Source: Paraburkholderia sp. Tr-20389 (lineage in GTDB: Bacteria > Pseudomonadota > Gammaproteobacteria > Burkholderiales > Burkholderiaceae). From it: a stretch of DNA of 64,000 nucleotides. This document shows positions 4,879 to 32,732 of the stretch, in pieces (positions within the stretch are counted from its first letter, which is position 1; every line of letters begins with the position of its first letter). A program made the position numbers and the translations under genes. Where the stretch lies: assembly GCF_017104565.1 (NCBI RefSeq), contig NZ_JAAGPD010000001.1, positions 927,316 to 991,315 of the forward strand, in the 5' to 3' direction. The notes under the pieces are model-generated. The model was not told the DNA's origin and searched no databases. It was given only the letters and a program-made list of their open reading frames with translations.

Positions 4879-5181
4879 TGACCGTCTTCGGGTGAATCGC
4901 TCGCCCGCGTACTCACGCGAGTACACCCTTCCGCATCACCGAACCGCAACGAGGCCAGACGCCTGAGCCTCGCTCCGGGCCGCACTGCGACGACACAGAC
5001 GTCACGCACAGCAAATAAAAAAGCCGTCGCCGCAATCGCGGCCTGCCCCCTTCCCCGTTTCGTCTACCTCATTAGTCGTACCCCGACTAACGGATTGAGC
5101 ATTTGTCGTCGATAAGAAACGATCTCACCTGTGGAGACGACGACACGCACGAATCCGATCATCGACCTAACGGAGTGTTCT
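4879..5181. other. Intergenic region upstream of the first GcvT-like gene
   Basis: This 303-bp stretch has no coding character. A perfect 6-bp inverted repeat GTACTC/GAGTAC with a 4-nt loop lies at 4909-4924, 30 bp after the last membrane gene. It has no T-run, so it is not a clear terminator. An A-tract at 5017-5022 next to a short GC hairpin (5029-5042) would read as a terminator only on the minus strand, where nothing needs ending. The promoter-proximal end carries the TAC-N10-GTA operator at 5065-5080. Confidence 0.5.
5065..5080. promoter_or_regulatory. NarL-type 7-2-7 operator candidate, site A
   Basis: TACCTCATTAGTCGTA fits TAC-N10-GTA, with half-sites TACCTCA and TACGACT facing each other across TT. 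It ends 101 bp before the GcvT-like start codon. It overlaps another dyad, TTAGTCG/CGACTAA (5072-5090). The same geometry recurs at 6366, 18549 and 28837. Binding by the NarL-family regulator at 28065 is inferred. Confidence 0.6.
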
Positions 5182-6312
5182 ATGGCAAATTCCTGGCGCA
5201 TCTCGGCGCTCGCAGACCGTCACCGTGCCCTGGGTTCCAGTCTCGAAGACTGGAACGGTATGGGCACGGCCTGGACCTATTCGACGGACCTCGCCGACCA
5301 CCACGAGACCATCCGCACGAAAGCCGGACTGATGGACGTATCCGGCCTGAAGAAAGTCCACTACGTGGGCCCGCATGCCGAAAGCCTGCTCGACTGGGCG
5401 ACCACGCGCGACATCGGCAAGCTGTATCCCGGCAAATCGGCTTACGCCGCGATCCTGAACGAGGAAGGCAAGTTCATCGACGACTGCATCGTGTACCGCA
5501 CGGGGCCCAATGCCTTCATGGTCGTGCATGGCGCGGGCACGGGCTACGAGCGGCTCGTGCGCTCCGCGCAGGGCCGCCAGGTCGCCGTACTGTTCGACGA
5601 CGATCTGCACGACCTGTCGCTGCAGGGACCGAACGCGGTGGATTTCCTCGCGGAACATGTCCCCAGCATCCGCGATCTGCCCTACTTCCATCACGTGCAA
5701 ACGCGCCTGTTCGGGCGCCCCGTGATGATCTCGCGGACCGGCTATACGGGTGAACGCGGCTACGAGATCTTCTGCAAAGCCGCCGACGCGCCGCTCATCT
5801 GGGACACGATACTCGCCAAAGGCGCGGGATTCGGCATCGTGCCATGCGCGTTCCTCGCGCTGGACTGGTTGCGCGTGGAGAGCTATCTCCTGTTCTTCCC
5901 GTACGACAACTCGGAGATGTACCCGTTCGCGGACGAAAAGGCGGGCGACACGTTGTGGGAGCTGGGTCTCGACTTCACCGTGTCGCCCGGCAAGACCGAG
6001 TTCTGCGGCGCGCGTGAACATTTCCGGCTCGCCGGCAAAGAGCGCTTCAGGATCTACGGCGTCGACATTGCAGCATCCAGGGCCGCGTCCGCAGGCGACA
6101 CGTTGTGGCGTGACGGAGAACAGGTCGGCGTCGTCACGTGCGGAATGTATTCAAGGCTCAGCAACCGCTCGCTCGCCATCGCCCGCATGAATGTCGCGCA
6201 AGCTCGCGACGGCGTCGCTCTGGAAGTGAGAGGCAGTGTCGATGCGCGCGCAACGGCGGCGGCATTGCCGTTCGACGACCCCGAAAAGAAGAAGCGCACC
6301 GCAATCGGCTAG
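5182..6312 (+). CDS. GcvT/aminomethyltransferase-family protein (DmmD-like), copy 1
   Basis: This 376-aa folate-binding protein belongs to the aminomethyltransferase (glycine cleavage T) family. It retains LMDVSGLKKVHYVGPHA at the N-terminus, ISRTGYTGERGYEIF (the folate-site signature) and a C-terminal barrel domain with LWRDGEQVGVVT. GcvT-like proteins beside demethylases move a formaldehyde-level carbon onto tetrahydrofolate. DmmD of marine dimethylamine degraders is one precedent I recall. ATG 5182 with CGGAG at 5171-5175 is preferred over GTG 5131. It precedes the permease at 6490 and lies behind operator site A. A second family member is at 18716. The substrate (DMA- or TMA-derived carbon, or another N-methyl compound) is not decided by sequence. 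Confidence 0.75.
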   Translation: MANSWRISALADRHRALGSSLEDWNGMGTAWTYSTDLADHHETIRTKAGLMDVSGLKKVHYVGPHAESLLDWATTRDIGKLYPGKSAYAAILNEEGKFIDDCIVYRTGPNAFMVVHGAGTGYERLVRSAQGRQVAVLFDDDLHDLSLQGPNAVDFLAEHVPSIRDLPYFHHVQTRLFGRPVMISRTGYTGERGYEIFCKAADAPLIWDTILAKGAGFGIVPCAFLALDWLRVESYLLFFPYDNSEMYPFADEKAGDTLWELGLDFTVSPGKTEFCGAREHFRLAGKERFRIYGVDIAASRAASAGDTLWRDGEQVGVVTCGMYSRLSNRSLAIARMNVAQARDGVALEVRGSVDARATAAALPFDDPEKKKRTAIG

Positions 6313-6365
6313 CCGTACCGCCGTTCATGGGCGGTTCCATTCTTGCTGGCATGCACCGACGGTCT

Positions 6366-6381
6366 TACCTACCCCGAGGTA
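6366..6381. promoter_or_regulatory. NarL-type 7-2-7 operator candidate, site B
   Basis: TACCTACCCCGAGGTA fits TAC-N10-GTA, with half-sites TACCTAC and TACCTCG (reverse complement of CGAGGTA). It ends 108 bp before the TTG start of the permease at 6490, nearly the same distance as site A from its gene. It implies that the permease has its own regulated promoter. Confidence 0.65.
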
Positions 6382-6489
6382 TTGTGAGCCGGAGGTTGCG
6401 CATTGCACCATGATTTCATGCCTTGTTCTTCAATATCGACAGATCACGGCCGCGACGCGTTGTCGGGCACGTGATCGAGGAGACGTAAA

Positions 6490-8130
6490 TTGAGTGCAAC
6501 CGAAGAGATTCACCGTCTGGAGGGACTGGCCGATGACGGCATGCGGTCGACCCTCAAACGCTCGCTGACATGGAAGGATGCGTTCTGGGTGGCGAGCGGC
6601 TCGCCTGCGTTCGTGCTCTTCACATTGGGCGCGATTGCCGCAACGGTCGGCCAGCCCGCATGGATCATCTGGATCGCGTCCATTTCCATCGGCTTCATCC
6701 AGTGCTTCACGTATGCCGAAATCTCCGGGCTCTTTCCTCATAAATCGGGCGGCGCGTCGATTTACGGCGCCATTGCATGGGTCCGGTACTCGAAGTTTCT
6801 TGCGCCCGTGTCCGTATGGTGCAACTGGTTTGCATGGTCGCCCGTGCTGGCGCTCGGCACGGGGCTCGGCGCGAGCTACATTCTCTCCACGCTCTTTCCC
6901 GCCGACGCCGCCATCAACACGTGGTCGTTCACGTTGATGAAGCTCGACTTCATCAAGGACGGTCTGAGCCTGCGCATCAACTCGACCTTCATCCTGGGCG
7001 CGTCCCTGCTGCTGCTGACGTTCTTCGTCCAGCACCACGGCGCCGAGCGTGCCGCGAAGCTGCAGAAGTACATGGGCATCATTGCCCTGATTCCGCTGAC
7101 CGTCTTCGGTCTCGAGCCGCTGCTCACCGGCACCGTCCACATGAGCAACTGGTTTCCGTTGCTGCCGCTTGCGCACGACGCCAAGGGCAACGTCGTTCCA
7201 GGCACATGGAATGCGGCCGGCTGGACGCTGATGATGGGCGGACTGTTCGTCGCGGGCTGGTCGACTTTCGGATTCGAAACCGCCGTGTGCTACACGCGCG
7301 AGTTCAAGAATCCGAAAACCGACACCTTCAAGGCGATCTTCTACTCGGGCCTGCTGTGCCTCGCGGTGTACATCCTCGTGCCGCTGTCGTTCCAGGGCGC
7401 GATGGGACTCAAGGGGCTGCTCGCCCCCGAAATCTACGACGGCACGGGTGTCGCGGCCGCGATGGCGCGAATCATCGGCGGCGGCACGGCGATCTTCTAC
7501 CTGATCGTCGTGATGCTCGTCTTCACGTTGCTGCTGTCGGTGATGACATCGATGATGGGCTCGTCCAGAACGCTGTATCAGGCATCCGTCGACGGCTGGC
7601 TGCCGCGTTATCTGTCGCATGTGAACGAGCACGGCGCACCGACGCGCGCGATGTGGACCGACCTCTGCTTCAACCTGATCCTGCTGATGATGTCGGATAA
7701 CGTCGCGGTGCTCGCGATGTCCAACGTCTGCTATTTCGCATTCGTGTTCCTGAACCTTCAGGCAGGCTGGATTCACCGGCTCGATCGTCCGACCTGGGCA
7801 CGTCCGTTCAAATGCCCGAACTGGCTGCTCGCGCTCGGCGCATTGTGCGGCTTCATCGACCTGGTGTGCATCGGCGCGGGCGCGGACATCTGGGGACCGG
7901 GCACCTTGCGCAACGGCCTCGTGGCGATTGCGCTGATCATCCCCGTGTTCATCTATCGGCACTACGTGCAGGACAAAGGCCGCTTCCCCGACGCCATGCT
8001 GGACGACCTGGAACTGCGGCCTGATGACGGCACGACCCGGCGCCGCGCCGCCTGGCTTCCGTATCTGACGCTGGTGGCGACCGTGCTCGTGGTCTGGCTG
8101 TCCCATCACTTCGCCGTGTTTCCGGCGTGA
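6490..8130 (+). CDS. APC-family permease, methylated-amine locus copy 1
   Basis: This 546-aa transporter has about 12-14 hydrophobic helices. The start is an unusual TTG at 6490, supported by AGGAGA at 6478-6483 and by the N-terminus matching the paralogue at 14325. Conserved stretches shared with that paralogue include SGGASIYGAIAWVRYSKF, VWCNWFAWSPVLA, FGFETAVCYTREFKNP and YLSHVNEHGAPTRAMWTDL. Placement between a GcvT-like gene and other methylated-amine genes suggests uptake of a methylated amine or quaternary amine; that is contextual inference. It lacks the roughly 20-residue loop insertion present in the other copy. It is probably regulated through operator site B and co-transcribed with the gene at 8173. 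Confidence 0.75.
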   Translation: MSATEEIHRLEGLADDGMRSTLKRSLTWKDAFWVASGSPAFVLFTLGAIAATVGQPAWIIWIASISIGFIQCFTYAEISGLFPHKSGGASIYGAIAWVRYSKFLAPVSVWCNWFAWSPVLALGTGLGASYILSTLFPADAAINTWSFTLMKLDFIKDGLSLRINSTFILGASLLLLTFFVQHHGAERAAKLQKYMGIIALIPLTVFGLEPLLTGTVHMSNWFPLLPLAHDAKGNVVPGTWNAAGWTLMMGGLFVAGWSTFGFETAVCYTREFKNPKTDTFKAIFYSGLLCLAVYILVPLSFQGAMGLKGLLAPEIYDGTGVAAAMARIIGGGTAIFYLIVVMLVFTLLLSVMTSMMGSSRTLYQASVDGWLPRYLSHVNEHGAPTRAMWTDLCFNLILLMMSDNVAVLAMSNVCYFAFVFLNLQAGWIHRLDRPTWARPFKCPNWLLALGALCGFIDLVCIGAGADIWGPGTLRNGLVAIALIIPVFIYRHYVQDKGRFPDAMLDDLELRPDDGTTRRRAAWLPYLTLVATVLVVWLSHHFAVFPA

Positions 8131-8172
8131 CGGATGCCCCGCAACGCCCATTCCGCTCAAGGAGCCTCGCAA

Positions 8173-8661: not shown

Positions 8662-8667
8662 AACGGC

Positions 8668-10536: not shown

Positions 10537-10602
10537 GACGCTCTCGCTTCAAAAAACAGGATCACTGATCGCCAACGCCGCGCGAACTCACACTAACCGC
10601 CC

Positions 10603-12420
10603 ATGAATATCGACCAGTCTGCGCGCATTCATCGCTATCCGCTTTACGCGAAAGTCTGTTTGCTGCTCGCCTGTATCGTGGCGCTCATCACCGTGCTTTA
10701 CCTGGGCGCGTTCATGCAGACAAGAGGAAGCGAAGGCTTCCGGCAGACGCTGTTCTCGCTCGACGAAGCCATGCGGCTGGAACGCAAGGCCGCGAGCCTG
10801 CAAACGGATTCGCCCGATACCGCACGTGCCTTGAGAGAGCTGTCCGACTCGCTTGTCCGCAACGATACGCTACTGACGGACTGGAGGCAACGCGGCGCGC
10901 CCACGCCCGAAATCGGCGGCGCGCTGGCGGCGGTGAATGCGCCCGCTGCGCCGGAGCACGCGGGCAAACCCGATGTGAAGCTCGCGGCGCTCGGCGCGTT
11001 GCGCTCGCAGGTTGCGTATCAACGCGAGGTGCATGCCGCCGTGCTCGGACTGTTGCAGGCCTGCACCGTGTGTCTGCTGATCTTCGGCGTGGTGTCGCTC
11101 GCATGGGGCACGCGGCGCACGCTCGTCGCGCGGCCGCGCGCGGCATTGCAGGCGCTCGTTGAAACGGGGCTGAGCGTGCCGCAAGGCCGCGACGAAATCG
11201 ATCGCCTGCTGAAGCTCCAGGCCCAGCTCGCCGTGCGGCTGCGCACGGAGCAGGACGAGTCCGTGCGGCTCAAGCGCATCGTCGAGGACTATATTACGTT
11301 CGCCGACCAGTCGCTCGAACTGCTGCATCACATCTGCGCCCAGCTCGCCGAAGAAGAACCGTCCGGCCGCACGCTCGAAGCGCTGTTGCAACGTCTGGTC
11401 GGCGTGCTGCGCGCGCGGCGCATCGCACTGGTGGTCACGGAATCGACGGCACAACTGCTCGACATCGATCCCGTTGTCGCGCCCAATGGCGATGTGCCGT
11501 CCATCGTGCGCGCCCGTGTGACGAACGAACTGATGACGCTTGCCGGCACGCACACGTTCCCGCCGCTCGATAACGGCGAGGTGCCGCCGCCCGTGCTGGC
11601 CGCGCCCGTGCGCGTGCCGCTCGCGAGCTATGGCGTGCTGATCGCGGAGGGCGAGCCGGATACGCGCTTCGAGCTGCGCCACCTGTATCTGATGGAAACC
11701 ATCGCGAGCGTGCTGGCGCACGCGATCTCCAATCTCAGCCGCGACGTGCGAGACCGGCGCATGGCGCTGTTCGAAGAGCGCAATGCGATCGCGCGCGAAC
11801 TGCACGACTCGCTGGCACAGTCGCTGTCGTACATGAAGATACAGCTGGCCCGCCTGCAGGCCGTGCTGCCGCCCGAACTCTCACAAACCGACATCGCCGA
11901 AATCGCACGCGGCATTCGCGAAGGTATCGACAGCGCTTACCGGCAGTTGCGCGAACTGCTCACCACGTTCCGTTCGCCGATGCATGCACACGGCCTCGCA
12001 TCCACGCTCGAAGAACTTGCCGAGGAATTCGGCTCGCGCAGCGAAGTGCAGATTTCGATCGACAACCGCGTGCCGCGCATGCGTCTGTCCGTCAACGAGG
12101 AGATGCACGTCGCGCAGATCGTGCGCGAGGCGCTGACCAATGTGCTTCGCCATGCACGCGCGACGACAGCCCAGGTGCAACTGATGTCGGACGGCCACAC
12201 GATGACCGTATCGATCGACGACGACGGCCGCGGCATCAACCGCACCGAAGGCGACGAGCATCACTACGGCCTGTCGATCATGCGCGAGCGCGCCCGCAGC
12301 CTCGGCGGACGGCTCGAAGTGAAACCGGCCGAACGGGGCTCGCGCGTGGTGCTGACCTTCGTCCCCACCGCGCTCGCCGCATACAAGGCGCGCGCGACCA
12401 GCGGGGCCGGCGTGCGCTAG
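10603..12420 (+). CDS. NarX-like membrane sensor histidine kinase
   Basis: This 605-aa kinase has TM1 at about residues 17-37, a periplasmic segment of about 105 residues, TM2 at about 145-167, a GAF-like region (about 230-370), a HisKA_3 dimerisation domain and an HATPase domain. The H-box reads IARELHDSLAQSLSY with the phospho-acceptor His401. The N-box EALTNVLRHA and G-boxes DDDGRGI and GLSIMRERA are intact. HisKA_3 kinases pair with NarL/FixJ-type regulators. The only such regulator in the window is at 28065, about 15.6 kb away beyond the amine operons, so this looks like a split two-component pair. The signal could be a methylated amine or formaldehyde; that is unproven. Its 3' end overlaps the convergent porin gene by 4 nt. 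Confidence 0.85.
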   Translation: MNIDQSARIHRYPLYAKVCLLLACIVALITVLYLGAFMQTRGSEGFRQTLFSLDEAMRLERKAASLQTDSPDTARALRELSDSLVRNDTLLTDWRQRGAPTPEIGGALAAVNAPAAPEHAGKPDVKLAALGALRSQVAYQREVHAAVLGLLQACTVCLLIFGVVSLAWGTRRTLVARPRAALQALVETGLSVPQGRDEIDRLLKLQAQLAVRLRTEQDESVRLKRIVEDYITFADQSLELLHHICAQLAEEEPSGRTLEALLQRLVGVLRARRIALVVTESTAQLLDIDPVVAPNGDVPSIVRARVTNELMTLAGTHTFPPLDNGEVPPPVLAAPVRVPLASYGVLIAEGEPDTRFELRHLYLMETIASVLAHAISNLSRDVRDRRMALFEERNAIARELHDSLAQSLSYMKIQLARLQAVLPPELSQTDIAEIARGIREGIDSAYRQLRELLTTFRSPMHAHGLASTLEELAEEFGSRSEVQISIDNRVPRMRLSVNEEMHVAQIVREALTNVLRHARATTAQVQLMSDGHTMTVSIDDDGRGINRTEGDEHHYGLSIMRERARSLGGRLEVKPAERGSRVVLTFVPTALAAYKARATSGAGVR

Positions 12421-13559: not shown

Positions 13560-13703
13560 CGAAGTCTCTTTGTGATTACCAGCAGTGAGATAACGTGACA
13601 TGACGCGACATCGCGCGGACCGTTGCGATGCGCGCGAACTCACCGCGCCGCCGAAGCAGCGCGATGAGCGTCTCGATCAGACTTGGGGAAGAACGACAGC
13701 GAA

Positions 13704-14297
13704 CTACAGATAGGGATGGGAGACGGCAGGCAGTTCGCCGGATACTTCGGCATCCGCCTGCACGCCCATGAACGCGGCAAGGCGCCGTGAAAAATGATCG
13801 CGCACGAGGAGTTGCAGTCCGCACCCACCGCAGGTCACGACATTCCGCGTCACGGCCTCATTGAACGCGTGACAGTGAATGCAGTAGACGCGACGTTGCA
13901 GTGTGCCGCTGTGCTGCAACTGGACAGCCTCCGCCGCAAGCGCGTGGTGCTCCGCGATGCGTCGGATCGACCAGATGAACGGCTCGCTGCCGAGCACATA
14001 GATGCGCAGGCCGATGGTCGCGACGGCCGGGTCGCGCAACGCCTCGTCGAATGCCGCAAACAGCGCGGCGTCATCGGCGAAGGTGCGCTCTCTCGCTTCA
14101 TGGAACGTGACACCCGCGCCGTGCCGCGTGGCATCGTGCACCTCCCACACGTCCATCGGCGAGAGCCCCGCGAGCGCAAGGCTCGCACGTACGCAATCCT
14201 CGGCGCTCGCACCGTTGGTGATGAACCAGTGGCGCGTGCCGTGCAGATCGGGAGCCAGCCGCGCGTACTCGGGCCGGCTCTTGTTGGTCGACATCAT
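13704..14297 (-). CDS. DmmA-like subunit of dimethylamine monooxygenase
   Basis: This 197-aa protein has an alpha/beta N-terminal domain (LHGTRHWFITNGASAED, TIGLRIYVLGSEPFIW) and a C-terminal zinc-ribbon-like element CIHC...CGGC (about residues 139-159). I recognise it as the small subunit that accompanies the DUF3445 haem protein and the PDR/VanB reductase in DMA monooxygenase clusters (named DmmA in some schemes; naming differs between organisms). Start codons ATG 14297 and 14294 are both possible. It lies 27 nt after the permease in the same operon. DMA monooxygenase converts dimethylamine, O2 and NADPH to methylamine and formaldehyde. Its exact role (electron transfer or assembly) is not decided here. 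Confidence 0.65.
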   Translation of the reverse strand: MMSTNKSRPEYARLAPDLHGTRHWFITNGASAEDCVRASLALAGLSPMDVWEVHDATRHGAGVTFHEARERTFADDAALFAAFDEALRDPAVATIGLRIYVLGSEPFIWSIRRIAEHHALAAEAVQLQHSGTLQRRVYCIHCHAFNEAVTRNVVTCGGCGLQLLVRDHFSRRLAAFMGVQADAEVSGELPAVSHPYL

Positions 14298-14324
14298 GGC
14301 AGTTTCGTCCGTTCGATGCGGGGT

Positions 14325-16004
14325 TCAATAGATCGCGAGGCTGTGCGTGACAGCGACCACCAAGATGCCCGCCGCTACCGTCACGTAAGGCAGGATGCCT
14401 GCGCGCCGCGCCACGCTTTGCGAGCCGACGAGCTGCATGTCTTCCTTCATCGCATCGGGGAAATGCCCCTTGTCGGTCACGTAGTGACGGAACAGGAACA
14501 CGGGCAGGATCAGCGCCGCGAAGCACAGGCCCGAGATCAGCGTGCCGGAGCCCCAGATATCCGCACCCATGCCGAGCAGCGCGAGATTGACGAACGAGAA
14601 CAGCGTGCCGAGCGCGAGCAGCCAGTTCGGCGCGCGGAACGGCCGGCTCCAGTCCGGGCGGTCCATCCGGTGAATCCATGCGGAATTCAGGTTCAGGAAG
14701 TTGAAGATGATGTAGCCGACATTCGACATCGCCAGCACGAACACATAGTCGGACATCAACAGCAGGACCAGGTTGAAGCACAGGTCCGTCCACATCGCGC
14801 GGGTCGGCGCGCCGTGTTCGTTGACGTGCGACAGGTACTTCGGCAGCCAGCCGTCGACGGACGCCTGATACAGCGTACGCGACGAGCCCGCCATCGACGT
14901 CATGATGGCCAGCACCAGCGCCAGCACCAGCATCACGATCAGCACGCGCTCGACCAGCAAGCCGCCGTGAATCATCGGCGCCATCGCTTTTGCGACGCCC
15001 ATGCCGCTGTAGATGTCGGGCGAAAGCATGCCGTCGTACACGGCGGGCGTGACGATGTTGCCCGCGGCATCCTTGACGGCGGGCGTGACCATGTGGCCGA
15101 GACCCAGCACGCCCTGGAACGCGAGCGGCACGATCGTGAACACGAAGATGCACAGCAGGCCGGAATACAGAATGGCCTTGAACGTGTCGACCTTCGGATC
15201 GCGGAATTCACGCGTGTAGCAGACGGCCGTTTCGAAGCCATACGTGGACCATGCGGCGATGAACAGTCCACCTGCCATCAGCGTGATACCCGCTCGATCC
15301 CATGTTCCGTCGACGATCTGCCCGGCGCTGTCCTTCGCGAACGGCACGAGCGGAAACAGGTTGTGCAACGGAAGATCGCCGCTGAAGAGCGGCACCGTGC
15401 CGACGAGAATCAGAGGCACCAGCGCGGCGATGCCGAGTATCGTCTGAATGCGTGCCGCGTTCAGAATGCCGCGGTGCTGAATCGCGAAGGTGACCAGCAG
15501 CACGACCGCGCCGAGTATGAAGGTCGAGTTGATCCGCAGGCTCAGGCCCGAACGGATCCAGTCGAGACTCACCAGCGTGACCTGCCATGTGTTGATCGCC
15601 GCGTCCGCCGGGAACAGCACGGAGAGTATGTAGCCCGCCGCGAGCCCCGAGCCGATCGCCAGCACGGGCGACCACGCGAACCAGTTGCACCAGACCGACA
15701 ATGGCGCAAACAGCTTCGAATAGCGGACCCACGCGATCGCGCCATACACCGACGCGCCACCCGACTTGTGAGGAAAGAGACCGGCGATCTCCGCATACGA
15801 GAACGACTGGATGAAACCAAGTCCGATCGAGATGATCCATACCGCCCACGACAGCTTGCCGACCGTCGCCGCAATCGACCCGATCGAAAACAGCACGAGC
15901 GCGGGCACGCCGCTCGCCACCCAGAATGCACCCGTCCAGCTGATCTTTCGATGTAAGGTACCGTCCGCTGCCTCGGCAACGTAGTCTTCGGAAACCGCAC
16001 TCAT
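14325..16004 (-). CDS. APC-family permease, methylated-amine locus copy 2
   Basis: This 559-aa paralogue of the permease at 6490 is very similar along its whole length (SGGASVYGAIAWVRYSKLF, YGFETAVCYTREFRDP, YLSHVNEHGAPTRAMWTDLC). ATG 16004 is preceded by AAAGGAC. A loop of about 20 residues with a repeated VTPAV (VTPAVKDAAGNIVTPAVYDG) is inserted before the segment equivalent to APEIYDGTGVA in copy 1. Insertion between the haem demethylase and the DmmA-like gene argues for import of dimethylamine or a related amine; the substrate is inferred. A gap of 163 bp with a hairpin separates it from the upstream gene. Confidence 0.8.
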   Translation of the reverse strand: MSAVSEDYVAEAADGTLHRKISWTGAFWVASGVPALVLFSIGSIAATVGKLSWAVWIISIGLGFIQSFSYAEIAGLFPHKSGGASVYGAIAWVRYSKLFAPLSVWCNWFAWSPVLAIGSGLAAGYILSVLFPADAAINTWQVTLVSLDWIRSGLSLRINSTFILGAVVLLVTFAIQHRGILNAARIQTILGIAALVPLILVGTVPLFSGDLPLHNLFPLVPFAKDSAGQIVDGTWDRAGITLMAGGLFIAAWSTYGFETAVCYTREFRDPKVDTFKAILYSGLLCIFVFTIVPLAFQGVLGLGHMVTPAVKDAAGNIVTPAVYDGMLSPDIYSGMGVAKAMAPMIHGGLLVERVLIVMLVLALVLAIMTSMAGSSRTLYQASVDGWLPKYLSHVNEHGAPTRAMWTDLCFNLVLLLMSDYVFVLAMSNVGYIIFNFLNLNSAWIHRMDRPDWSRPFRAPNWLLALGTLFSFVNLALLGMGADIWGSGTLISGLCFAALILPVFLFRHYVTDKGHFPDAMKEDMQLVGSQSVARRAGILPYVTVAAGILVVAVTHSLAIY

Positions 16005-16139
16005 AACTGTCGTCCTTTTTCCGGTGGAATACCGATTGTGGGAATCGATCCGCGTGAAAGCACCCGCTCCGCGCCATGGAAGCGCGAACGCGGGAAGGAA
16101 ACACTGAACAGCTTGTGGTTGTTAACGGCGTAGATCGTT

Positions 16140-16167
16140 AAAGGCATGCACCCCGGCGAATGCCCTT
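16140..16167 (-). promoter_or_regulatory. Hairpin immediately after the haem-demethylase stop
   Basis: On the minus strand AAGGGCAT pairs with ATGCCTTT (8 bp including one G-U) across a 12-nt loop, directly after the stop of the gene at 16168. Only three Ts follow, so it is a weak terminator at best. It could stabilise the upstream mRNA or attenuate expression of the permease. Confidence 0.4.
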
Positions 16168-17238: not shown

Positions 17239-17253
17239 GAGATCCCCCTTGCG

Positions 17254-18210: not shown

Positions 18211-18338
18211 GCCGTCGACACCTCCATAAGTCTCAGCTGTGGGCGTGAGTGACAGACACGCTGCGTGTCCTTCACGTCGTTGCATTCATGGAAGAAGCAT
18301 CGGCCTGCAAAAAACGCTTATCAATGATTCAGTGGGGG

Positions 18339-18354
18339 TAGTCCCTGCGCAGTA
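18339..18354. promoter_or_regulatory. Near-consensus 7-2-7 operator, site F (dmm operon)
   Basis: Read on the minus strand, TACTGCGCAGGGACTA matches TAC-N10-GTA except for the last triplet (CTA). It lies 129 bp before the reductase start codon, in the same distance range as sites A, B and D. The single mismatch lowers confidence. Confidence 0.4.
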
Positions 18355-18548: not shown

Positions 18549-18564
18549 TACCCACCGGGAGGTA
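18549..18564. promoter_or_regulatory. NarL-type 7-2-7 operator candidate, site C (TMADH operon)
   Basis: TACCCACCGGGAGGTA fits TAC-N10-GTA, with half-sites TACCCAC and TACCTCC separated by CG. It lies 151 bp upstream of the second GcvT-like gene, the first gene of the TMADH operon. Its right arm GGGAGGTA is identical to that of site D. Confidence 0.65.
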
Positions 18565-18715
18565 GTGCCACCGGGCGATTGTGGGGCGAAATTGAACGGC
18601 AGAGACTTGCGCTCATCGACGCTGGCCCATCCAGCCCGTCCGATATCGCCGCCTTCGCAACACCAAACGCGTGCAGTCATTGCCCAGTAAAGGGTCCTAC
18701 TTTCGGGAAAACATC

Positions 18716-19828
18716 ATGACAAGGCAATCCATTCTCAACGCCCGTCATCGCGAGCTAGGTTCGAAGCTCGATGGCGACTCCTGGAACGACATGCCGATTC
18801 CCTGGTACTACTCGGGCGATCCGTATGACGACGTGGTCGCCGTGCGCACGGCAGCGGGCCTCTACGACATCAGCGCGCTCAACATCGTGCGCGTGACGGG
18901 CCCCGATGCGGCAGCCGTGATCGACAGCATCTGCGCGGTCGACGTGAGCCGCATGAAGCCGGGCACCGCTCGGCTCGCGGCCGAAGTCGACGAGCGCGGC
19001 GGCGTCTGCGACGACCTGATGGTGATCTACGACGCTCCGCAGCATTTCAGGCTCTCGCATGGCGGCGGCACCACGCAGTCGCTTCTCGAACGCGCCGCGC
19101 ACAAGCGCAACGTGGAATGGCGCCAGGACTTCGACGTGCACATGCTGTCGCTGCAAGGTCCGCGTTCGACCGACATCCTGCAGCCGCACATCGGCATCGA
19201 ACTGAACAAGCTGCCCTACTTCGCGCACGTCGAGACACAACTCTTCGGCCGCAAGATCATCGTGTCGCGCGGCGGCTATTCGGGCGAACAGGGCTTCGAA
19301 GTGTCGTGCGCTTCCGCCGACGCCGTCGCGCTGTGGGACGGCATTCTCGATGCGGGCAAGCCGCACGGCGCGGTGCCCGCCTCGTGGATGTCGCTGGAAA
19401 TCGCGCGGATCGAAGCCGCGCTGCTCTTCTATCCGTTCGACATGCCCGAAGGCGACACCACGCCGTGGGAGCTGAATCTCGACTGGATGGTCGACGTCGA
19501 CAAGGCGGGCGACTACGTCGGCAAGCAGGCCTTGCTCGCCGCGCGCGGCAAGGAACGCGTGAAGCAGGCGGGCGTGGTCGTCAGGCACGACGCGGCCGTG
19601 AGCGCCGGTTCGCCGATCTATATCGGCGACGAGCAGGTCGGCGTCGTGACGAGTTCGATTTTCAGCCGCTATCTGATGCAGTCGCTCGCGATGGTGCACC
19701 TGAAGCCGAACCACACGGCCCTCGGCACCAAGGTCGAGATTCGCGACGCGGCCGGCAAGTTCAACGGCGTCGTCAGCAAGACGCCGTTCTACGACCCGAT
19801 GCGCTTGCGCACCCGCGTCGCCGCCTGA
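18716..19828 (+). CDS. GcvT/aminomethyltransferase-family protein (DmmD-like), copy 2
   Basis: This 370-aa member of the aminomethyltransferase family is homologous to the protein at 5182 but well diverged. It shows AAGLYDISALNIVRVTGPDA, IVSRGGYSGEQGFEV (folate-site signature) and a C-terminal barrel with YIGDEQVGVVTSSIF. It probably binds tetrahydrofolate and captures the methyl-group carbon as methylene-THF, which would feed the serine cycle directly; this is inferred from family and context. ATG 18716 is preceded by a weak GGGA. It leads the TMADH operon behind operator site C, with a 165-bp gap and a strong hairpin before tmd. Confidence 0.75.
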   Translation: MTRQSILNARHRELGSKLDGDSWNDMPIPWYYSGDPYDDVVAVRTAAGLYDISALNIVRVTGPDAAAVIDSICAVDVSRMKPGTARLAAEVDERGGVCDDLMVIYDAPQHFRLSHGGGTTQSLLERAAHKRNVEWRQDFDVHMLSLQGPRSTDILQPHIGIELNKLPYFAHVETQLFGRKIIVSRGGYSGEQGFEVSCASADAVALWDGILDAGKPHGAVPASWMSLEIARIEAALLFYPFDMPEGDTTPWELNLDWMVDVDKAGDYVGKQALLAARGKERVKQAGVVVRHDAAVSAGSPIYIGDEQVGVVTSSIFSRYLMQSLAMVHLKPNHTALGTKVEIRDAAGKFNGVVSKTPFYDPMRLRTRVAA

Positions 19829-19850
19829 CACGCAGTCCCCACGATACGGC

Positions 19851-19879
19851 GGCACGCGCAACGCCGCAGCGCGCGTGCC
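19851..19879 (+). promoter_or_regulatory. Intercistronic hairpin between the GcvT-like gene and tmd
   Basis: GGCACGCGC (19851-19859) and GCGCGTGCC (19871-19879) form a perfect 9-bp stem with an 11-nt loop, 22 bp after the upstream stop. No U-tract follows, so mRNA processing or stabilisation is more likely than termination. Confidence 0.45.
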
Positions 19880-19969
19880 GTCACCACGAGAAAGACAGAG
19901 GCAGAGCGAAGTACAAGAACTGTCCAGGGTTCGACGGTCCACGGCCGTAGCCCGCCTTTGTCTCGGTAG

Positions 19970-22186
<2,217 letters not shown>

Positions 22187-22202
22187 CGCAGCGGTAAGCA
22201 AC

Positions 22203-22228
22203 GGAAGCCGGCAAGGCCGCCGGCTTCC
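22203..22228 (+). promoter_or_regulatory. Strong intercistronic hairpin after tmd
   Basis: GGAAGCCGGC (22203-22212) pairs perfectly with GCCGGCTTCC (22219-22228) around a 6-nt loop, 16 bp after the tmd stop. The following sequence is pyrimidine-rich but has no T-run. It may protect the abundant tmd message from 3' decay or partly terminate transcription before the downstream electron-transfer genes. Confidence 0.55.
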
Positions 22229-22348
22229 TCCGCCCTTCCCCGCAGTCAGGACGCCACGCGCATCGCGCCGTCCGGATCGCCGCACCCGGCGATTCGTGCA
22301 GCCGATGCCGGGGCGGGTGCCCCTTTTACTCTTTCAACGGACGAGCCC

Positions 22349-24511
22349 ATGTCGAGCGCAGCGAACTTCGACCCCGTCAACGTCACCCGGATCCTCTTCG
22401 AGGGCTTCCCCACGTTCGCGATCGTACTGTTCTATCTGGCAGGCGTCGGCGCGATGGCCGCATTCGCGTGGGGCGTCTATGTGCAGGTGCGCAAGTACCG
22501 GCGCGGCAAACCCGTAGCCGGCCCGATCGATCTGCGCGAACGCGTCGGCGCCATGGTGCGCGTGGTGCTGAGCCATCGCACGATCGCGCGACGCGACCCG
22601 GCAGCGGGCCGCGCGCATCGCTTCATTTTCTACGGCTTCGCGGTGCTGTTCCTCGGCACGGCGACCGTCACCGTCGACTACGACATCACCGCGCGCTTTC
22701 TCGGCTTCCATTTCTGGAACGGCAACTTCTATCTGTTCTTCAAGCTGGCGATGAATCTCGCCGGCCTGTCGCTGGTGGGCGGGTTGATCTACATGATGGC
22801 GCGGCGCGGCTGGATCAAACCGCCGAAGCTCGATTACACGCGCCCCGATCGCAAGCCCGGCGACCCCGACTACGACCGCAGCGGATATCGTCGCGAAGAC
22901 TGGGCCTTCCTGTGGTCGCTCGTGCTGATCGGCATCACCGGCTTCGTGCTGAGCGGCTTGCGCCTCGTGTGGCTGCAGGATCGCGCCGTGGTGTGGGACA
23001 CGCGCTGGTGGTCGCCCGTTGCGGCGCTGCTCGCCGAGATCATGCGCGGCGCGGGGCTCAGCGCGTCGGCCGCATACGTAATGCGCACGGGTCTGTGGTG
23101 GTTTCACGGCGCGCTCGCGCTGACGTTCATTGCGCTCATCCCGTACACCAAGGTCAAGCACATCTTCACGGCAAGCGGCTCGCTGCTGATGCGCGACCCG
23201 CTCGCCGCGCAGCGCCTGCCGAAAGTGGAGGCCGACGCGCCGCGCGCAGGCTACAAGACGATCACCGACTTCACGTGGAAGCATCTGCTCAATCTCGACG
23301 CCTGCACCAAGTGCGGCCGCTGTCATGAGGCTTGCCCCGCGCGCGCCGTCGGTGCGCCGCTCTCGCCGCGCGACGTGATCCTGTCGCTGCGCGAATTCGC
23401 CAACGACGCGCTGGAGAAAAACACGCTGCCCGAAGAGGTCAAGCTCGACGTGCACGGCAAGGACATCGGCCAGGTCTTCATGGAAACGGTCTGGTCGTGC
23501 CGGACCTGCATGGCGTGCGTGGAGATCTGCCCGGTCGCCGTCGAACACGTGCCCATCATCGTGCAGTTGCGCCGCAATCTCGTCGAAGACGGCAACATGG
23601 AACCGCAGGTGCAGAAGACCTTGCAGGCCATCCACAAGAACGGCAACTCGTTCAACGAATCGAAACGCAAACGCGCCGCGTGGACCAAGTCGCTGCCCTT
23701 CCCGATCAAGGATGCGCGCAAGGAGCCCGTCGATCTGCTGTGGTTCGTCGGCGACTACGCGTCGTTCGATCCGCGCAACCAGCGTGTCACGCAGGGTTTC
23801 GCCACGTTGCTGCACGATACGGAGGTGGATTTCGGCCTGCTGTTCGAAGGCGAAGCGAACGCGGGCAACGATGTGCGGCGCGTCGGCGAAGAAGGCCTGT
23901 ATGAAGTGCTCGCGACGCAGAACATCGCGACACTCGGCACCTCACAGTTCCGTCGCATCGTCACCACAGACCCTCATTCGTACAACACGATCCGCAACGA
24001 GTACCCGGACTTCGGCGGCCACTTCGAGATCGAGCACTACACGAGCCTCGTCGCGCGCATGCTCGCCGAGGGCCGGCTGCGTCCGAAGCGCAAGCTCGGC
24101 TATCGCGTGACCTTCCATGATCCGTGTCACCTCGGCCGCTTCAACAAGGGCTACGACGCGCCGCGCCAGATCATCGAAGCGCTCGGCTGCGATCTCGTCG
24201 AAATGAAACGCTCGCGCGACAACTCGTTCTGCTGTGGCGCAGGCGGCGGCCGTATCTGGATGAACGATCCCGTCGGTCAGGAAAAGCCCTCTCAAAACCG
24301 CATGAAGGAAGCGGCCAGCATCGAAGGTCTGGAGGTGTTCGTCGTGTGCTGCCCGAAAGACCTGACGATGTTCGAAGACGCGCTGAAGACGAGCGGCTAC
24401 GAAGGACGTTTCGTCGTGCGCGAGCTGATCGAGCTGATTGCCGAGAGCCTCGTCGACGTCAACGACGACGCGCCGCCCGCGGACGATGTCCGCATCACGG
24501 CCGACGCCTGA
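22349..24511 (+). CDS. Membrane Fe-S oxidoreductase (DgcB / ETF:quinone oxidoreductase-like)
   Basis: This 720-aa protein has an N-terminal integral-membrane region with about six helices (residues 20-300, NarI/haem-b-like, including FWNGNFYLFFKLAMNL and LWWFHGALALTFIAL). Two 4Fe-4S motifs follow (CTKCGRCHEACP and CRTCMACVEICP), then CCG domains (DPCHLGRF, NSFCCGAGGG, VVCCPKD) as in heterodisulfide reductase HdrD. Relatives include DgcB of dimethylglycine catabolism and the ETF:menaquinone oxidoreductase family. Between TMADH and EtfBA, its likely job is to take electrons from reduced ETF into the quinone pool. The start ATG 22349 lies 162 bp after tmd. The assignment to ETF is contextual. 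Confidence 0.75.
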   Translation: MSSAANFDPVNVTRILFEGFPTFAIVLFYLAGVGAMAAFAWGVYVQVRKYRRGKPVAGPIDLRERVGAMVRVVLSHRTIARRDPAAGRAHRFIFYGFAVLFLGTATVTVDYDITARFLGFHFWNGNFYLFFKLAMNLAGLSLVGGLIYMMARRGWIKPPKLDYTRPDRKPGDPDYDRSGYRREDWAFLWSLVLIGITGFVLSGLRLVWLQDRAVVWDTRWWSPVAALLAEIMRGAGLSASAAYVMRTGLWWFHGALALTFIALIPYTKVKHIFTASGSLLMRDPLAAQRLPKVEADAPRAGYKTITDFTWKHLLNLDACTKCGRCHEACPARAVGAPLSPRDVILSLREFANDALEKNTLPEEVKLDVHGKDIGQVFMETVWSCRTCMACVEICPVAVEHVPIIVQLRRNLVEDGNMEPQVQKTLQAIHKNGNSFNESKRKRAAWTKSLPFPIKDARKEPVDLLWFVGDYASFDPRNQRVTQGFATLLHDTEVDFGLLFEGEANAGNDVRRVGEEGLYEVLATQNIATLGTSQFRRIVTTDPHSYNTIRNEYPDFGGHFEIEHYTSLVARMLAEGRLRPKRKLGYRVTFHDPCHLGRFNKGYDAPRQIIEALGCDLVEMKRSRDNSFCCGAGGGRIWMNDPVGQEKPSQNRMKEAASIEGLEVFVVCCPKDLTMFEDALKTSGYEGRFVVRELIELIAESLVDVNDDAPPADDVRITADA

Positions 24512-24542
24512 GCAACACGACCTCCAGCGACCCATCGCCGCC

Positions 24543-26099
24543 ATGACGCCCACCGCCCGTCACGCCGACAGCCAACCGTGCGCCGCGCATGACGCACGCG
24601 CGGGCGCGCGGCTGCGTCGCCACTGGCGGGAACTCATGCGGCTCGCGCTCGACGCGCCGGATGCGCTCGCTTGCGCGATGCTCTATCCGCACGCGGGCGG
24701 TGCCGAGCGCAAGCGGCTGGAAGCGCGCATGTTCGGCGCACGCAGCGAACGGCTCGCGCTCGCGGCCTGCCCGTATGCGCCGCCTGCCGTGCTTGCAAGG
24801 CTTTGCATACTCGCCACCGCCGACGCTGACGGCACGCTGGCGACGCGCCTCGCCCGCAACGCCGCCACGCCCGCCGACGGATTGGAAAGGCTTGCCGCGT
24901 CGCTCGAAGCCACGACGGCTGAGCAAGGCACCCAACGCCTCGCGCAACTGATCGCGCGACATCCGCTTGCACCGCCCGCGCTGCTGGAGAAAATCGCGGC
25001 GCACGCCGACAGCATCGAAACCTTGCGCTCGCTATGCGAAAACGTCGGCATACAGCCCGATCTGCTGGCGCACCTCGCCGGCCGCGGTATCGCGCCGTTG
25101 CAGCGGCTGCTCGCCATTCACTTCGCAACGGATGCACGCACGCTGCATCAGCTATGGCAAAGCACGCGTGAAAGCGCCGTGCGCGCTCAGGTGCTGCGTC
25201 ATCGCGCGTGCCCGAACGAACTGTTGCGCACGGTCCCGGCATCGAGCGCGGAACGGCGCAGCCTCGCATCGAACGTGCGCACGGCCGCCGAGATCCTGAC
25301 CGCACTGGCACGCGATGACGACCCGACCGTCCGCCGCGCCGCCGCCACCAATCCGGCGACACCCGCAGGCGCGCTGATCTTGCTGTGCTTCGACGCGGAC
25401 ACGCTCGTCAGACGCGCGGTCGCCGTGCGCGACGATCTGCCTCTCAAGGTCGTCGAGTGGCTCGCCAGCGACGGCGACGTGTGGGTGCGCAGCAGTCTCG
25501 CGCGCAACCGGGCCTGCCCACGCAGCTGGCTCGATCGTCTTGCACGTGACCGCGAGCCCGACGTGCGCCGCTCGGTCACGCGCCATACGGGTTGCCCGAT
25601 GACACTGCTCGCGCTGCTCGCGAACGACGAGGTCGCGTGGGTCCGCGCGGGCGTCGCATTGCGCGACGAACTGCCCGGCAGCGTGCTGCATCGTCTGTTG
25701 CAGGACGACGATATCGACGTGCTGGCGGGCGTCGCGCGCCATCGCGGCACGCCGCAGGCAACGCTCGCGCGCCTTGCCCAGCATGCGTCGCCCGATGTGC
25801 GGCGTGCCGTCATCCTCAACCGCCATGCGCAGCGGCGCGTGTTGCTGCCGCTGCGCGACGAGTCGTATCCGCTGCACCGCGTGCTCGTGTTCATGCATCA
25901 GAGCCTGACCGATGCGGACCGCTGGCGCATGCGCTTCGAACCGGACATGGAGGCACGTGCCCGCATGTACGGCCATCTCGCCGGCACACTCGCCGCCGCG
26001 CGCGAACGGGAGTGCCAGCAACGGCGCGCCGCTGACGAAGCGGGACCGCCTGAGCCAGACACACATCAATTGACCACATCAGTGGAGGAGGCAGGATGA
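24543..26099 (+). CDS. Leucine-rich-repeat-variant (LRV/HEAT-like) protein
   Basis: This roughly 518-aa soluble protein is built largely of about 24-residue alpha-helical repeats from residue ~190 to ~450. Examples are VRRAAATNPATPAGALILL, VRSSLARNRACPRSWLDRLA, VRRSVTRHTGCPMTLLALLA and VRRAVILNRHAQ. These match the LRV pattern first described in Azotobacter, whose N-terminus carries a 4Fe-4S cluster. The N-terminal part here has scattered Cys (QPCAAH, LACAML, LAACPYA, RLCILA) that could do the same. The start is uncertain: ATG 24543 avoids overlap with the upstream gene, and 24486 is possible. Its stop overlaps the etfB start (ATGA), so it is translationally coupled to the TMADH electron carrier. 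The role is unknown; assembly of flavin/Fe-S proteins is a guess. Confidence 0.7.
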   Translation: MTPTARHADSQPCAAHDARAGARLRRHWRELMRLALDAPDALACAMLYPHAGGAERKRLEARMFGARSERLALAACPYAPPAVLARLCILATADADGTLATRLARNAATPADGLERLAASLEATTAEQGTQRLAQLIARHPLAPPALLEKIAAHADSIETLRSLCENVGIQPDLLAHLAGRGIAPLQRLLAIHFATDARTLHQLWQSTRESAVRAQVLRHRACPNELLRTVPASSAERRSLASNVRTAAEILTALARDDDPTVRRAAATNPATPAGALILLCFDADTLVRRAVAVRDDLPLKVVEWLASDGDVWVRSSLARNRACPRSWLDRLARDREPDVRRSVTRHTGCPMTLLALLANDEVAWVRAGVALRDELPGSVLHRLLQDDDIDVLAGVARHRGTPQATLARLAQHASPDVRRAVILNRHAQRRVLLPLRDESYPLHRVLVFMHQSLTDADRWRMRFEPDMEARARMYGHLAGTLAAARERECQQRRAADEAGPPEPDTHQLTTSVEEAG

Positions 26100-26896
26100 A
26101 GATACTCGTAACCATCAAGCAGGTCACGTCGCTCGACGAGGATTTCGAGCTGCGCGACGACGACCGCGACGTCGAAGCGGACTTTCATGTCTTCGACCTC
26201 AACGAATGGGATCACTACGCGCTTGAAGAAGCGCTGCGGCTCAAGGAAGGCGCCGACGGCGACGGCATCGAAGTCGTCGTCGTCACCGTCGGCCCGGAGC
26301 GCGCCGACGAAGAGCTGCGCAAGTGCCTCGCCAAAGGCGCCGACCGCGCGATCCGCATCTGGAACGACGAACTGGAAGACGCCGACCCGATCGGCATCGC
26401 GCGCGCGCTCGCCGCGCTGGCGCGCCGCGAAGCGCCCGACATGATCTTCGCCGGCGTGCAGGCGTCCGACCATGCGTACGGCGCAACAGGGATGGCGCTC
26501 GCGGGTCTGCTCGACTGGCCGCACGCGGCTGTCGTCGCCGGTCTGGAATACGCGCCCGGCGCGGGCACGGCCAGCGCGCGCCGCGAGCTGGAAGGGGGCG
26601 CCTACGCGAATGTCACCGTGCAATGCCCCGCCGTGCTCACGCTGCAACTGGGCATCAACACGCCGCGTTACGCGTCGCTGCGCGGCATCAAGCAGGCCGC
26701 GTCGCGGCCGATCGAAGCCGTGACGCCGGACGCACTCGGTCTGCCCGCGGAGCAGACGGGCGCACGAGGATCGCTGTCGCGCATCCGGCGCGTCTATGTG
26801 CCCGAACTCGGACGTGCGCAGATGATCGACGGCACGCCCGCCGAACAGGCCGCCCGCCTCGCGGGCATCATCAAGGAACTTCGGGGAGAAGCGTAA
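26096..26896 (+). CDS. etfB: Electron-transfer flavoprotein beta subunit, TMADH-linked
   Basis: This 266-aa beta subunit is of the Methylophilus TMADH-ETF type. The start MKILVTIKQV and the segments DLNEWDHYALEEALRLKEG, VEVVVVTVGPERADEELRKCLAKGADRAIRI, LQLGINTPRYASLRGIKQA and YVPELGRAQMIDG are all characteristic. It holds the AMP site; with EtfA it accepts single electrons from TMADH. ATG 26096 has GGAGGAGGCAGG immediately upstream and overlaps the LRV stop by 4 nt. The operon context and resemblance to the dedicated methylotroph ETF, rather than the housekeeping one, make the partner assignment strong. Confidence 0.92.
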   Translation: MKILVTIKQVTSLDEDFELRDDDRDVEADFHVFDLNEWDHYALEEALRLKEGADGDGIEVVVVTVGPERADEELRKCLAKGADRAIRIWNDELEDADPIGIARALAALARREAPDMIFAGVQASDHAYGATGMALAGLLDWPHAAVVAGLEYAPGAGTASARRELEGGAYANVTVQCPAVLTLQLGINTPRYASLRGIKQAASRPIEAVTPDALGLPAEQTGARGSLSRIRRVYVPELGRAQMIDGTPAEQAARLAGIIKELRGEA

Positions 26897-27846
26897 TGAG
26901 CGGGATTCTGGTTATTGCTGAACATCGTCAGGGGCAACTGCGCCCCGTGAGCACCGAACTGATCGGCGCCGCGCGTGAAGCGGGCGGCGAACGCGTGACG
27001 GTCGCCGTGCTGGGCGCAACGCCCGCAGCATTCGTCGACGCGCTCAAGCTGGCAGGCGTCGACGAGATCGTCACTGTGCAGACGGCGAGCGATGCGTTCG
27101 ACCCCGACACGTACCAGGCCGTTGCACAGGCGCTGATCGAAGCGCGCCAGCCCTCGCTCGTGCTGCTGCCGCATACGATCGACACGCTGGGTTACGCCGC
27201 GCCTCTCGCGGTCAAGGGGAACTACGGCTTCACCACTGACACATTCGGGCTCGCACGCGACGGCGACGGCTGGATCGCCACGCGCGCGGGCTACGGGCAG
27301 AAGGTCAACATGGAGATCGAGTTTCCCGGGCACGCCACCGTCGTCGTCACCGTGCGGCCCGGCGCGTTCAAGGCGCCCGACGCCGCCGGAACGCCCGAGG
27401 TCAGCACATTCGACGCCCCCGCCGTCACGCCGCGCAGCACTCATGTGTCGTTCGAAGAACCCGCTGCGAGCGGCGACGTGGATATCGTCGGTGCGGACTT
27501 CATCATGTCGATTGGCCGTGGCATCGGCGAGGAAACGAACGTTGAACAGTTCCGCGAACTCGCCGGCTCGCTCGGCGCGACGCTCGGCTGCTCGCGTCCC
27601 ATCGCGGACTCGGGCTGGCTGCCGAAAGCGCATCAGGTCGGCCAGTCCGGCAAGACAGCAGCCGCCTGCAAACTGTATATCGCCATGGGCATCTCGGGCT
27701 CGGTGCAGCACATGGCGGGCATGAAGCACGTCGAGAACATCATCGCCGTCAATACCGATCCCGAAGCGTCGATCTTCTCGATCGCGAAGTACGGCATCGT
27801 CGGCGACATCTTCGACATTGCGGAAGAACTGCGCGGCCACTTCTAA
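26896..27846 (+). CDS. etfA: Electron-transfer flavoprotein alpha subunit, TMADH-linked
   Basis: This 316-aa FAD-binding subunit starts SGILVIAEHRQGQLRPVSTEL. The C-terminal FAD domain reads IMSIGRGIGEETNVEQF, CSRPIADSGWLPK, QVGQSGKTA, MGISGSVQHMAGMK and IIAVNTDPEASIF, all intact. It is about 50-60% like the Methylophilus protein by my recollection, not computed. The start codon overlaps the etfB stop by one base (TAATG) behind GGGGAGAA. It is the last gene of the TMADH operon; a possible terminator follows at 27864. Confidence 0.92.
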   Translation: MSGILVIAEHRQGQLRPVSTELIGAAREAGGERVTVAVLGATPAAFVDALKLAGVDEIVTVQTASDAFDPDTYQAVAQALIEARQPSLVLLPHTIDTLGYAAPLAVKGNYGFTTDTFGLARDGDGWIATRAGYGQKVNMEIEFPGHATVVVTVRPGAFKAPDAAGTPEVSTFDAPAVTPRSTHVSFEEPAASGDVDIVGADFIMSIGRGIGEETNVEQFRELAGSLGATLGCSRPIADSGWLPKAHQVGQSGKTAAACKLYIAMGISGSVQHMAGMKHVENIIAVNTDPEASIFSIAKYGIVGDIFDIAEELRGHF

Positions 27847-27863
27847 ACCGGCATCATGGAAAA

Positions 27864-27902
27864 CCCGGAACGCGCGTGCATTCCGGGTGCAAACTATTTT
27901 TT
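27864..27902 (+). terminator. Possible rho-independent terminator after etfA
   Basis: CCCGGAA (27864-27870) pairs with TTCCGGG (27881-27887), and a run of six Ts lies at 27897-27902. The T-run is displaced about 9 nt from the stem, so efficiency is doubtful, but it marks the end of the TMADH operon. Confidence 0.5.
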
Positions 27903-28064
27903 CAATTGTGGTTAATTGCTAAACTCATCGACGCAACACTTCGGCAACAGAAACAATAAGCCACCGCTCACAGCTTCACGACATCGCCCTGCGCCGCAAG
28001 ACGCAGTCAAGCCAGCCGGACCGACGAAGCGCATTGGTCTGGTCAATGAGTCCAGGAAGAGCAG

Positions 28065-28712
28065 ATGGTCCCTCACACAGTACTTCTGATCGACGATCAC
28101 GCGTTGTTTCGCAAGGGCGTCGCACAACTGATCCAGATGAACCCGGCGTTCGAGGTCACGGGCGAAGCGACCTCGGGTCAGGATGGCATCGAAATGGCCG
28201 TGCGGCTCAAGCCGGATGTCGTTTTGATCGACCTGAACATGCCGCGCATGAACGGCATCGAAACGCTCGAAGGCATGCGCCAGGCCGGTGTCGACGCGCG
28301 CTTCATCATGCTGACGGTGTCGGACAACGAGCGCGACGTGGTCGCCGCGTTGCGCGCGGGCGCACACGGGTATCTGCTGAAGGACATGGACCCCGAGGAC
28401 TTGTGCGTGTCGCTGCAGAAAGCGCTGAAAGGCACGGCCGTGCTGAGCGAATCCGTCACGGGCAGTCTCGTTCATGCGCTCTCGGGCGGCCAGCGCATTC
28501 CCGCTGCGCAGAACGATCTGACGGCCCGCGAAGTCGAGGTGTTCGATTACCTCGTGGCGGGCCTGTGCAACAAGGCGATCGCACGCAAGCTCGACATCAG
28601 CGTGGGCACGGTCAAGGTGCACGTCAAGCACGTGCTGCGCAAGCTCGATCTGCACTCGCGTCTCGAAGCCGTGCTGTGGCAGCAGGAACACGGCTCGCGC
28701 TCGCATCACTGA
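28065..28712 (+). CDS. NarL/FixJ-family response regulator
   Basis: This 215-aa regulator has a receiver domain (residues 4-120) with phospho-acceptor Asp56 in VVLIDLNMP, acidic pair DD at 10-11, switch Thr in MLTVSDNE and Lys in YLLKDMD. A LuxR-type helix-turn-helix follows (LTAREVEVFDYLVAGLCNKA, ISVGTVKVHVKHVLRKL). ATG 28065 follows AGGAAGA. No kinase gene adjoins it. The HisKA_3 kinase at 10603 has the right class and sits at the other end of the methylated-amine block. NarL-family dimers bind 7-2-7 inverted heptamers, the same geometry as the TAC-N10-GTA sites at 5065, 6366, 18549 and 28837, so it is the best candidate regulator of these operons. Confidence 0.88.
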   Translation: MVPHTVLLIDDHALFRKGVAQLIQMNPAFEVTGEATSGQDGIEMAVRLKPDVVLIDLNMPRMNGIETLEGMRQAGVDARFIMLTVSDNERDVVAALRAGAHGYLLKDMDPEDLCVSLQKALKGTAVLSESVTGSLVHALSGGQRIPAAQNDLTAREVEVFDYLVAGLCNKAIARKLDISVGTVKVHVKHVLRKLDLHSRLEAVLWQQEHGSRSHH

Positions 28713-28836
28713 TATCGCGGCGCGTATGCGCCGCTTCCGATCCCCATCATCGACGCCGCGTCCTGCTCGCGGCGGCGTTCTGCTGTGCGTGCCTCGCGCA
28801 TCGCGTATCGCGTATCGCGCTGCTCTGGTTAACCTC

Positions 28837-28852
28837 TACTCCCCGGGAGGTA
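28837..28852. promoter_or_regulatory. NarL-type 7-2-7 operator candidate, site D
   Basis: TACTCCCCGGGAGGTA is the most symmetric of the set (TACTCCC / TACCTCC around CG). It lies 106 bp before the preferred start of the sigma54 activator at 28959, inside the 246-bp gap after the response regulator gene. It suggests that the regulator controls the activator in a cascade. Confidence 0.65.
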
Positions 28853-32717: not shown

Positions 32718-32732
32718 GCTCTCGCTCCCCGT

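Follow-up and report, generated by a model that had tools for sequence, protein, structure and literature searches.

A NarX/NarL-type two-component system probably re-purposed for methylated amines in Paraburkholderia

From the perspective of their control, the methylated-amine genes of Paraburkholderia sp. Tr-20389 are best explained as targets of a NarX/NarL-type two-component system that has probably been re-purposed for methylated amines, the dyads upstream of these genes being its NarL sites. This reading is built on DNA and protein sequences and starts from a window of 64,000 nucleotides (the whole stretch of DNA that was analysed), which is part of a methylotrophy island. Its genes are arranged in the order gcvT1, TMAO-type permease, PAS protein, kinase, porin, dmm (minus strand), gcvT2-tmd-Fe-S-ETF, narL1 and sigma54 activator; past the activator lie genes for HAD, phosphoribulokinase and FBPase as well as tetrahydromethanopterin and serine-cycle genes. 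The features on which the argument draws are the following:

5065..5080, plus strand: dyad before gcvT1, TACCTCATTAGTCGTA, with one good half; TTGAGC at 5095-5100, N17, AACGAT at 5118-5123
5182..6312, plus strand: gcvT1, GcvT-fold protein
6366..6381, plus strand: dyad before the TMAO-type permease gene; TTG at 6396, no clear -10
6490..8130, plus strand: TMAO permease-type transporter (NF053774, 828.6 bits, cut-off 690)
10603..12420, plus strand: NarX/NarQ-like sensor kinase, the proposed partner (HisKA_3, HATPase_c, GAF_3)
13704..18285, minus strand: dmm operon (DmmA-like protein, permease, HODM alpha-like protein, ferredoxin/FAD reductase)
18339..18354, minus strand: degenerate dyad facing dmm, TACTGCGCAGGGACTA; 14 nt, TTGATA at 18324-18319, N17, GATGCT at 18301-18296
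18549..18564, plus strand: dyad before the gcvT2/tmd operon; TTGTGG at 18579-18584, N17, GAGACT at 18602-18607
18716..27846, plus strand: gcvT2, tmd-type OYE flavoprotein, Fe-S protein, LRV-repeat protein, ETF subunits
28065..28712, plus strand: narL1, NarL-type response regulator, the proposed binder (NarL equivalog model NF007935, 268.2 bits, cut-off 250)
28837..28852, plus strand: dyad before the sigma54-activator gene; TTGTCA at 28868-28873, N17, AATAAT at 28891-28896
28959..30992, plus strand: sigma54 activator (GAF, AAA+ with GAFTGA loop, Fis-type HTH)
35108..35122, plus strand: sigma54 -24/-12-like site TGGCATAGCGCTTGC before the tetrahydromethanopterin operon (9/10 consensus letters)

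The LRV-repeat gene (24438-26099, plus strand) lies within the tmd operon, flanked by the Fe-S and ETF genes, and is found in 10 of 12 same-genus regions, the window included. Two plus-strand ORFs, 30997-31815 and 31812-32936, were set aside as shadows of the minus-strand HAD-hydrolase, phosphoribulokinase and FBPase genes, and 'o250' in locus L068 was likewise called too long.

The exact TAC-N10-GTA dyads that the first-pass annotation had reported at 5065, 6366, 18549 and 28837 were all found again, and the gaps to the start codons at 5182, 6490, 18716 and 28959 are 101, 108, 151 and 106 bp. The window contains six copies of the pattern, the other two (10371 and 45296) lying within ORFs of the ORF lists, against an expectation of 0.89 (sd 0.91), and no dinucleotide shuffle out of 100 reached six, which agrees with the earlier view that the dyads exceed chance; the background then assumed, one chance copy per about 9 kb, was an overestimate, the shuffles giving about one per 70 kb. 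A further, one-mismatch copy at 18339-18354 does exist, but its orientation had to be amended, as it is a degenerate minus-strand element pointing towards dmm. It lies 128 bp upstream of the dmm start at 18210 (minus strand), which is preferred on its ribosome site, the longest ORF beginning at 18285; its second arm reads CTA instead of GTA and its interior matches TACYYM poorly. The dyad at 5065 has a single good half (TACCTCA).

A TTG follows each of these five dyads, 14 nt downstream at gcvT1, the permease, dmm (minus strand) and gcvT2 and 15 nt downstream at the activator; a trinucleotide shared equally well arose in 15 of 20,000 random draws of five intergenic stretches. This dyad-TTG spacing common to five window promoters is new here. 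The TTG and the hexamer 17 bases on are read as putative -35 and -10 boxes of a sigma70 promoter, which would place the dyad near -58, presumably an activating position. The same letters recur in relatives, with TTG at gcvT2 in 10/10 (+14), at the activator in 9/9 exact dyads (+15), at gcvT1 in 4/4 and at dmm in 10/10 (+14), and the bases 17 past it are GAGACT at gcvT2 and AATAAT at the activator in 10/10 each. The permease promoter has TTG in two of three relatives, with TCG in G021.

Conservation in related genomes, a check set beforehand, came out in favour of the dyads. Among genomes in which both flanking genes could be located by tblastn (gcvT2/tmd is missing there from G069 and G039), an exact dyad precedes gcvT2/tmd in 10/10 and the sigma54 activator in 9/10, G020 being one base short. 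The gcvT1 promoter carries an exact dyad in four of the seven genomes with gcvT1 and a one-mismatch form in two more, and none was seen in G047; the permease promoter does so in three of the six genomes with the permease, and in G087 and G005 a dyad occupies the permease position although the permease was not found there. The dmm-facing TAC-N10-CTA is kept in 8 of 10 same-genus genomes, the window included. Two further relatives, Caballeronia glathei (L086) and P. oxyphila (L087), have dyads at both the gcvT2 and activator promoters, and in other Burkholderiales families, Methylophilaceae among them, the gcvT2 dyad is present in all five loci that hold that stretch, each of which also has narL (L080 and L092 are left out, the gcvT2 upstream stretch being absent from them). 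These other-family dyads were listed at 5 or 6 of 6 core letters, and some occur also in other loci (L076, L081, L101); at +14 their gcvT2 promoters show TTT in three cases, TTG in one and neither in L079.

The motif scan of the whole genome that had been asked for as a check led to the same genes. TACYYM is the NarL half-site core as published (accessible text of PMC4886647), and the strict form TACYYMN4KRRGTA occurs seven times in 8,997,065 bases, the backward-pattern control giving 13. Three of the seven copies are in the window and one stands before the methylamine (N-methylglutamate) operon beside a second narL, which the scan reached blindly. With 0.67% of the genome in the two methylated-amine regions, finding four of the seven copies there corresponds to P 6.8e-8, an optimistic value because the interior letters of the strict pattern were partly derived from these very sites. 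A dyad with one TACYYM half and TTG 14 nt downstream occurs four times genome-wide (three in the window, one beside narL2), and never in the backward control. Across 11 narL-bearing genomes, 35 of 62 strict matches fall in methylated-amine loci (33 in fetched loci plus two more) and 27 elsewhere; for the extended form the split is 23 and 11 of 34. In G020, 7 of 10 strict matches lie elsewhere, six of them one repeated sequence. The comparison set, 11 of the listed genomes (out of 129) that gave no match to narL at E 1e-60, had 18 strict matches in total, one to three each. G039 bears narL, and near that narL no such site was found.

On the protein side, the best candidate for the predicted binder of the dyads is the NarL-type protein encoded at 28065. 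It matches E. coli NarL (PDB 1a04) with E 1.6e-61, with an identical recognition helix (TVKVHVKH), and its receiver Asp region PDVVLIDLNMP aligns with PDLILLDLNMP of E. coli NarL; its nearest named relatives are from Paraburkholderia (95-96%). The second protein, narL2, is 80% identical and is encoded on another contig (narL1 on C19, narL2 on C23). The helix is TVKVHVKH in 16 and TVKVHIK[HN] in 4 of 20 methylated-amine NarLs. The narG-linked NarL of the same genome is 44% identical and has the helix TVKIHVRN; narG itself is on contigs C34 and C42, apart from narL1 and narL2, so that no linkage to nitrate respiration is seen. In a NarL tree the methylated-amine and nar labels need two changes, one change sufficing in 24% of bootstrap trees, and the single methylated-amine clade that was looked for was not resolved there. 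Taken with the promoter data, the regulon first proposed keeps its NarL reading, and is amended in that there are two narL paralogs and a wider regulon, with gcvT1 and permease sites that are not kept everywhere.

The proposed partner, the kinase at 10603, matches NarQ/NarX models in its cytoplasmic (kinase) half only and below cut-off. Using the periplasmic consensus given in the available part of PMC8199190, the nitrate P-box is absent from 17 of 17 methylated-amine-locus kinases (13 + 4), the window kinase included, so a nitrate signal is unlikely for them; it is present in both narG-locus kinases read (L076 and L081), a sample that excludes the source genome's own. In other families the kinase adjoins narL in 6 of 7 loci, and in the window it is 15.6 kb away from narL1. 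Judging from the targets, the signal would be a methylated amine or a product of one.

In the mechanism that we propose, the dyads would be sites of narL1 and probably also of narL2. When methylated amines or a product are present, the kinase at 10603 would phosphorylate NarL, a dimer of which would bind the 7-2-7 site. The centre of that site would lie near -58, some 22-23 bp upstream of a weak -35 box, a spacing which suggests that bound NarL would recruit sigma70 RNA polymerase. Bound NarL would in this way switch on the TMAO permease, the GcvT-like proteins, dmm, tmd, the N-methylglutamate operon and the sigma54 activator, and the activator may then turn on the tetrahydromethanopterin operon via 35108.

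Other owners of the sites have to be weighed against this mechanism. Two narG genes are present in the genome, along with a narG-linked NarL that would share the DNA consensus, and it is conceivable, if improbable, that the nitrate NarXL pair owns the dyads, with nitrate controlling methylated-amine use and the local NarL a spare copy. Against this stand the different helix of the narG-linked protein, the distribution of the strict sites (four of seven in methylated-amine loci and none on the narG contigs C34 and C42) and the fact that in other families, too, the local NarL goes with these operons. The sigma54 activator at 28959 is encoded within the locus and has a dyad before its own gene, as would suit a protein that used the dyads both as enhancers and as its own operator; G143, G147 and G149 have no homolog of it at E <= 1e-90, and because G143 and G147 nevertheless retain narL and the gcvT2 dyad, the activator is not taken as the binder. 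The dyads, moreover, keep a fixed distance from sigma70-like rather than -24/-12 boxes, and the enhancer reading is rated slightly below the nitrate one.

Just as doubtful as the enhancer reading is the idea that another factor reads the dyads, for instance the HTH/cupin regulator whose gene adjoins narL2 and accompanies the N-methylglutamate operon: the element TTTCCTGTCAGGAAA in the same promoter would suit such a protein better, and the form of the dyad is that published for NarL. Least probable of all, and already disfavoured, is that the dyads reflect chance or the common ancestry of functionless intergenic DNA. TAC-N10-GTA is short and some of the relatives are close, but the dyad, the TTG and the -10 letters persist amid diverging flanks, and the layout is common to non-homologous promoters and kept in other families.

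The genes next to narL2 (purU, soxB/soxA-like genes and a type III glutamate-ammonia ligase, 626.8 bits against a cut-off of 469.6) form an operon that we take to be the N-methylglutamate route of methylamine use. Its dyad, 88 bp upstream, is present before purU in 8/8 same-genus relatives, a count that leaves out G047, G039, G064 and G067, the last two because they were examined after the blind scan had matched there, with strict matches immediately before purU-soxB. The promoter layout differs from that of the window, as the operon has its own TTGACA-N17-TACTGT some 65-77 nt beyond the dyad. Between dyad and purU lies the HTH/cupin-type palindrome (L068 13152-13166), which is kept in aligned relatives with one base different in G069; together with the HTH-plus-cupin regulator, whose gene travels with the operon, it probably forms a second control layer.

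Also beside narL2 (L068 15789-16388, plus strand; G000:C23), a dyad-14-TTG promoter runs divergently from narL2 and is followed by a small ORF and then by a near-invariant structured stretch of about 65 nt that ends in a terminator. This stretch is likely a small RNA of the regulon. Strong matches occur in 7 of 147 genomes, plus two weak ones of 30 bases; the eight aligned copies (two from G005) have a fold z of -3.13, and a search of Rfam gave sub-threshold matches only and no family.

As for the sigma54 activator, it may act at the putative 35108 site on the tetrahydromethanopterin operon. The letters TGGCAT..CGCTTGC of this site are invariant in 7/7 aligned genomes (G047, G064 and G067 offered no alignable stretch). 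It was the only match retained, since the 24 weak sigma54 matches (at least 8/10 letters) within the window's first 40 kb are mostly coding, and none adjoining the dyads has GG/GC correctly placed. The gene at G000:C19:5897-7924 (minus strand) encodes another activator of this type, with 59% identity to the one in the window.

The closest known counterparts are the NarX-NarL/NarQ-NarP systems of E. coli, which share the curated NarL model, the recognition helix and the 7-2-7 dyads with TACYYM arms (excerpts of PMC4886647 and PMC4549865); an engineered 7-2-7 site of E. coli NarL, TACCCCTAAAGGGGTA, has the same form as the dyads (PMC4549865, in part). Unlike in E. coli, the kinase has no P-box and the targets are methylated-amine operons, and the sites lie near -58 by estimate, whereas those of napF and yeaR are at -38 to -49 (same portion of PMC4549865). 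Within the Burkholderiaceae, the NarX-NarL pair of Burkholderia pseudomallei is a nitrate sensor, and the accessible text of PMC8742066 makes no mention of methylamine. A single regulator over the entire TMA-to-MMA pathway is known in Ruegeria pomeroyi, but that protein, TmaR, is AraC-type and kinase-free, as opposed to a two-component system of another family here; TmoR of the same organism is a separate tmm repressor (both from the available part of PMC13390433). No AraC-family regulator was found among those locus proteins that were scanned, a subset of the ORFs. In Methyloversatilis, induction of the N-methylglutamate genes is accompanied by that of an unnamed regulator (PMC5023235, accessible portion), and a literature search that covered few subscription papers found no link between NarL and methylated amines.

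A broader proposal can be made tentatively, at somewhat short of an even chance: that a non-nitrate NarX-NarL branch is the master methylated-amine switch throughout the order Burkholderiales, in Burkholderiaceae, Methylophilaceae and two or more other families. A remodelled periplasmic sensor would read a methylated amine or a product, NarL would drive all steps from TMAO/TMA to methylamine and, via the sigma54 activator, formaldehyde oxidation, and the conserved small RNA would be an extra output. As sources of nitrogen and carbon, methylated amines are widespread; a master regulator described for their use is TmaR, an AraC-type protein of marine bacteria (PMC13390433). If the reading holds, a nitrate-signalling module would have been re-aimed at a new signal with its DNA code unchanged in soil and freshwater Burkholderiales, and it would provide a regulon of about seven promoters together with a candidate methylated-amine sensor.
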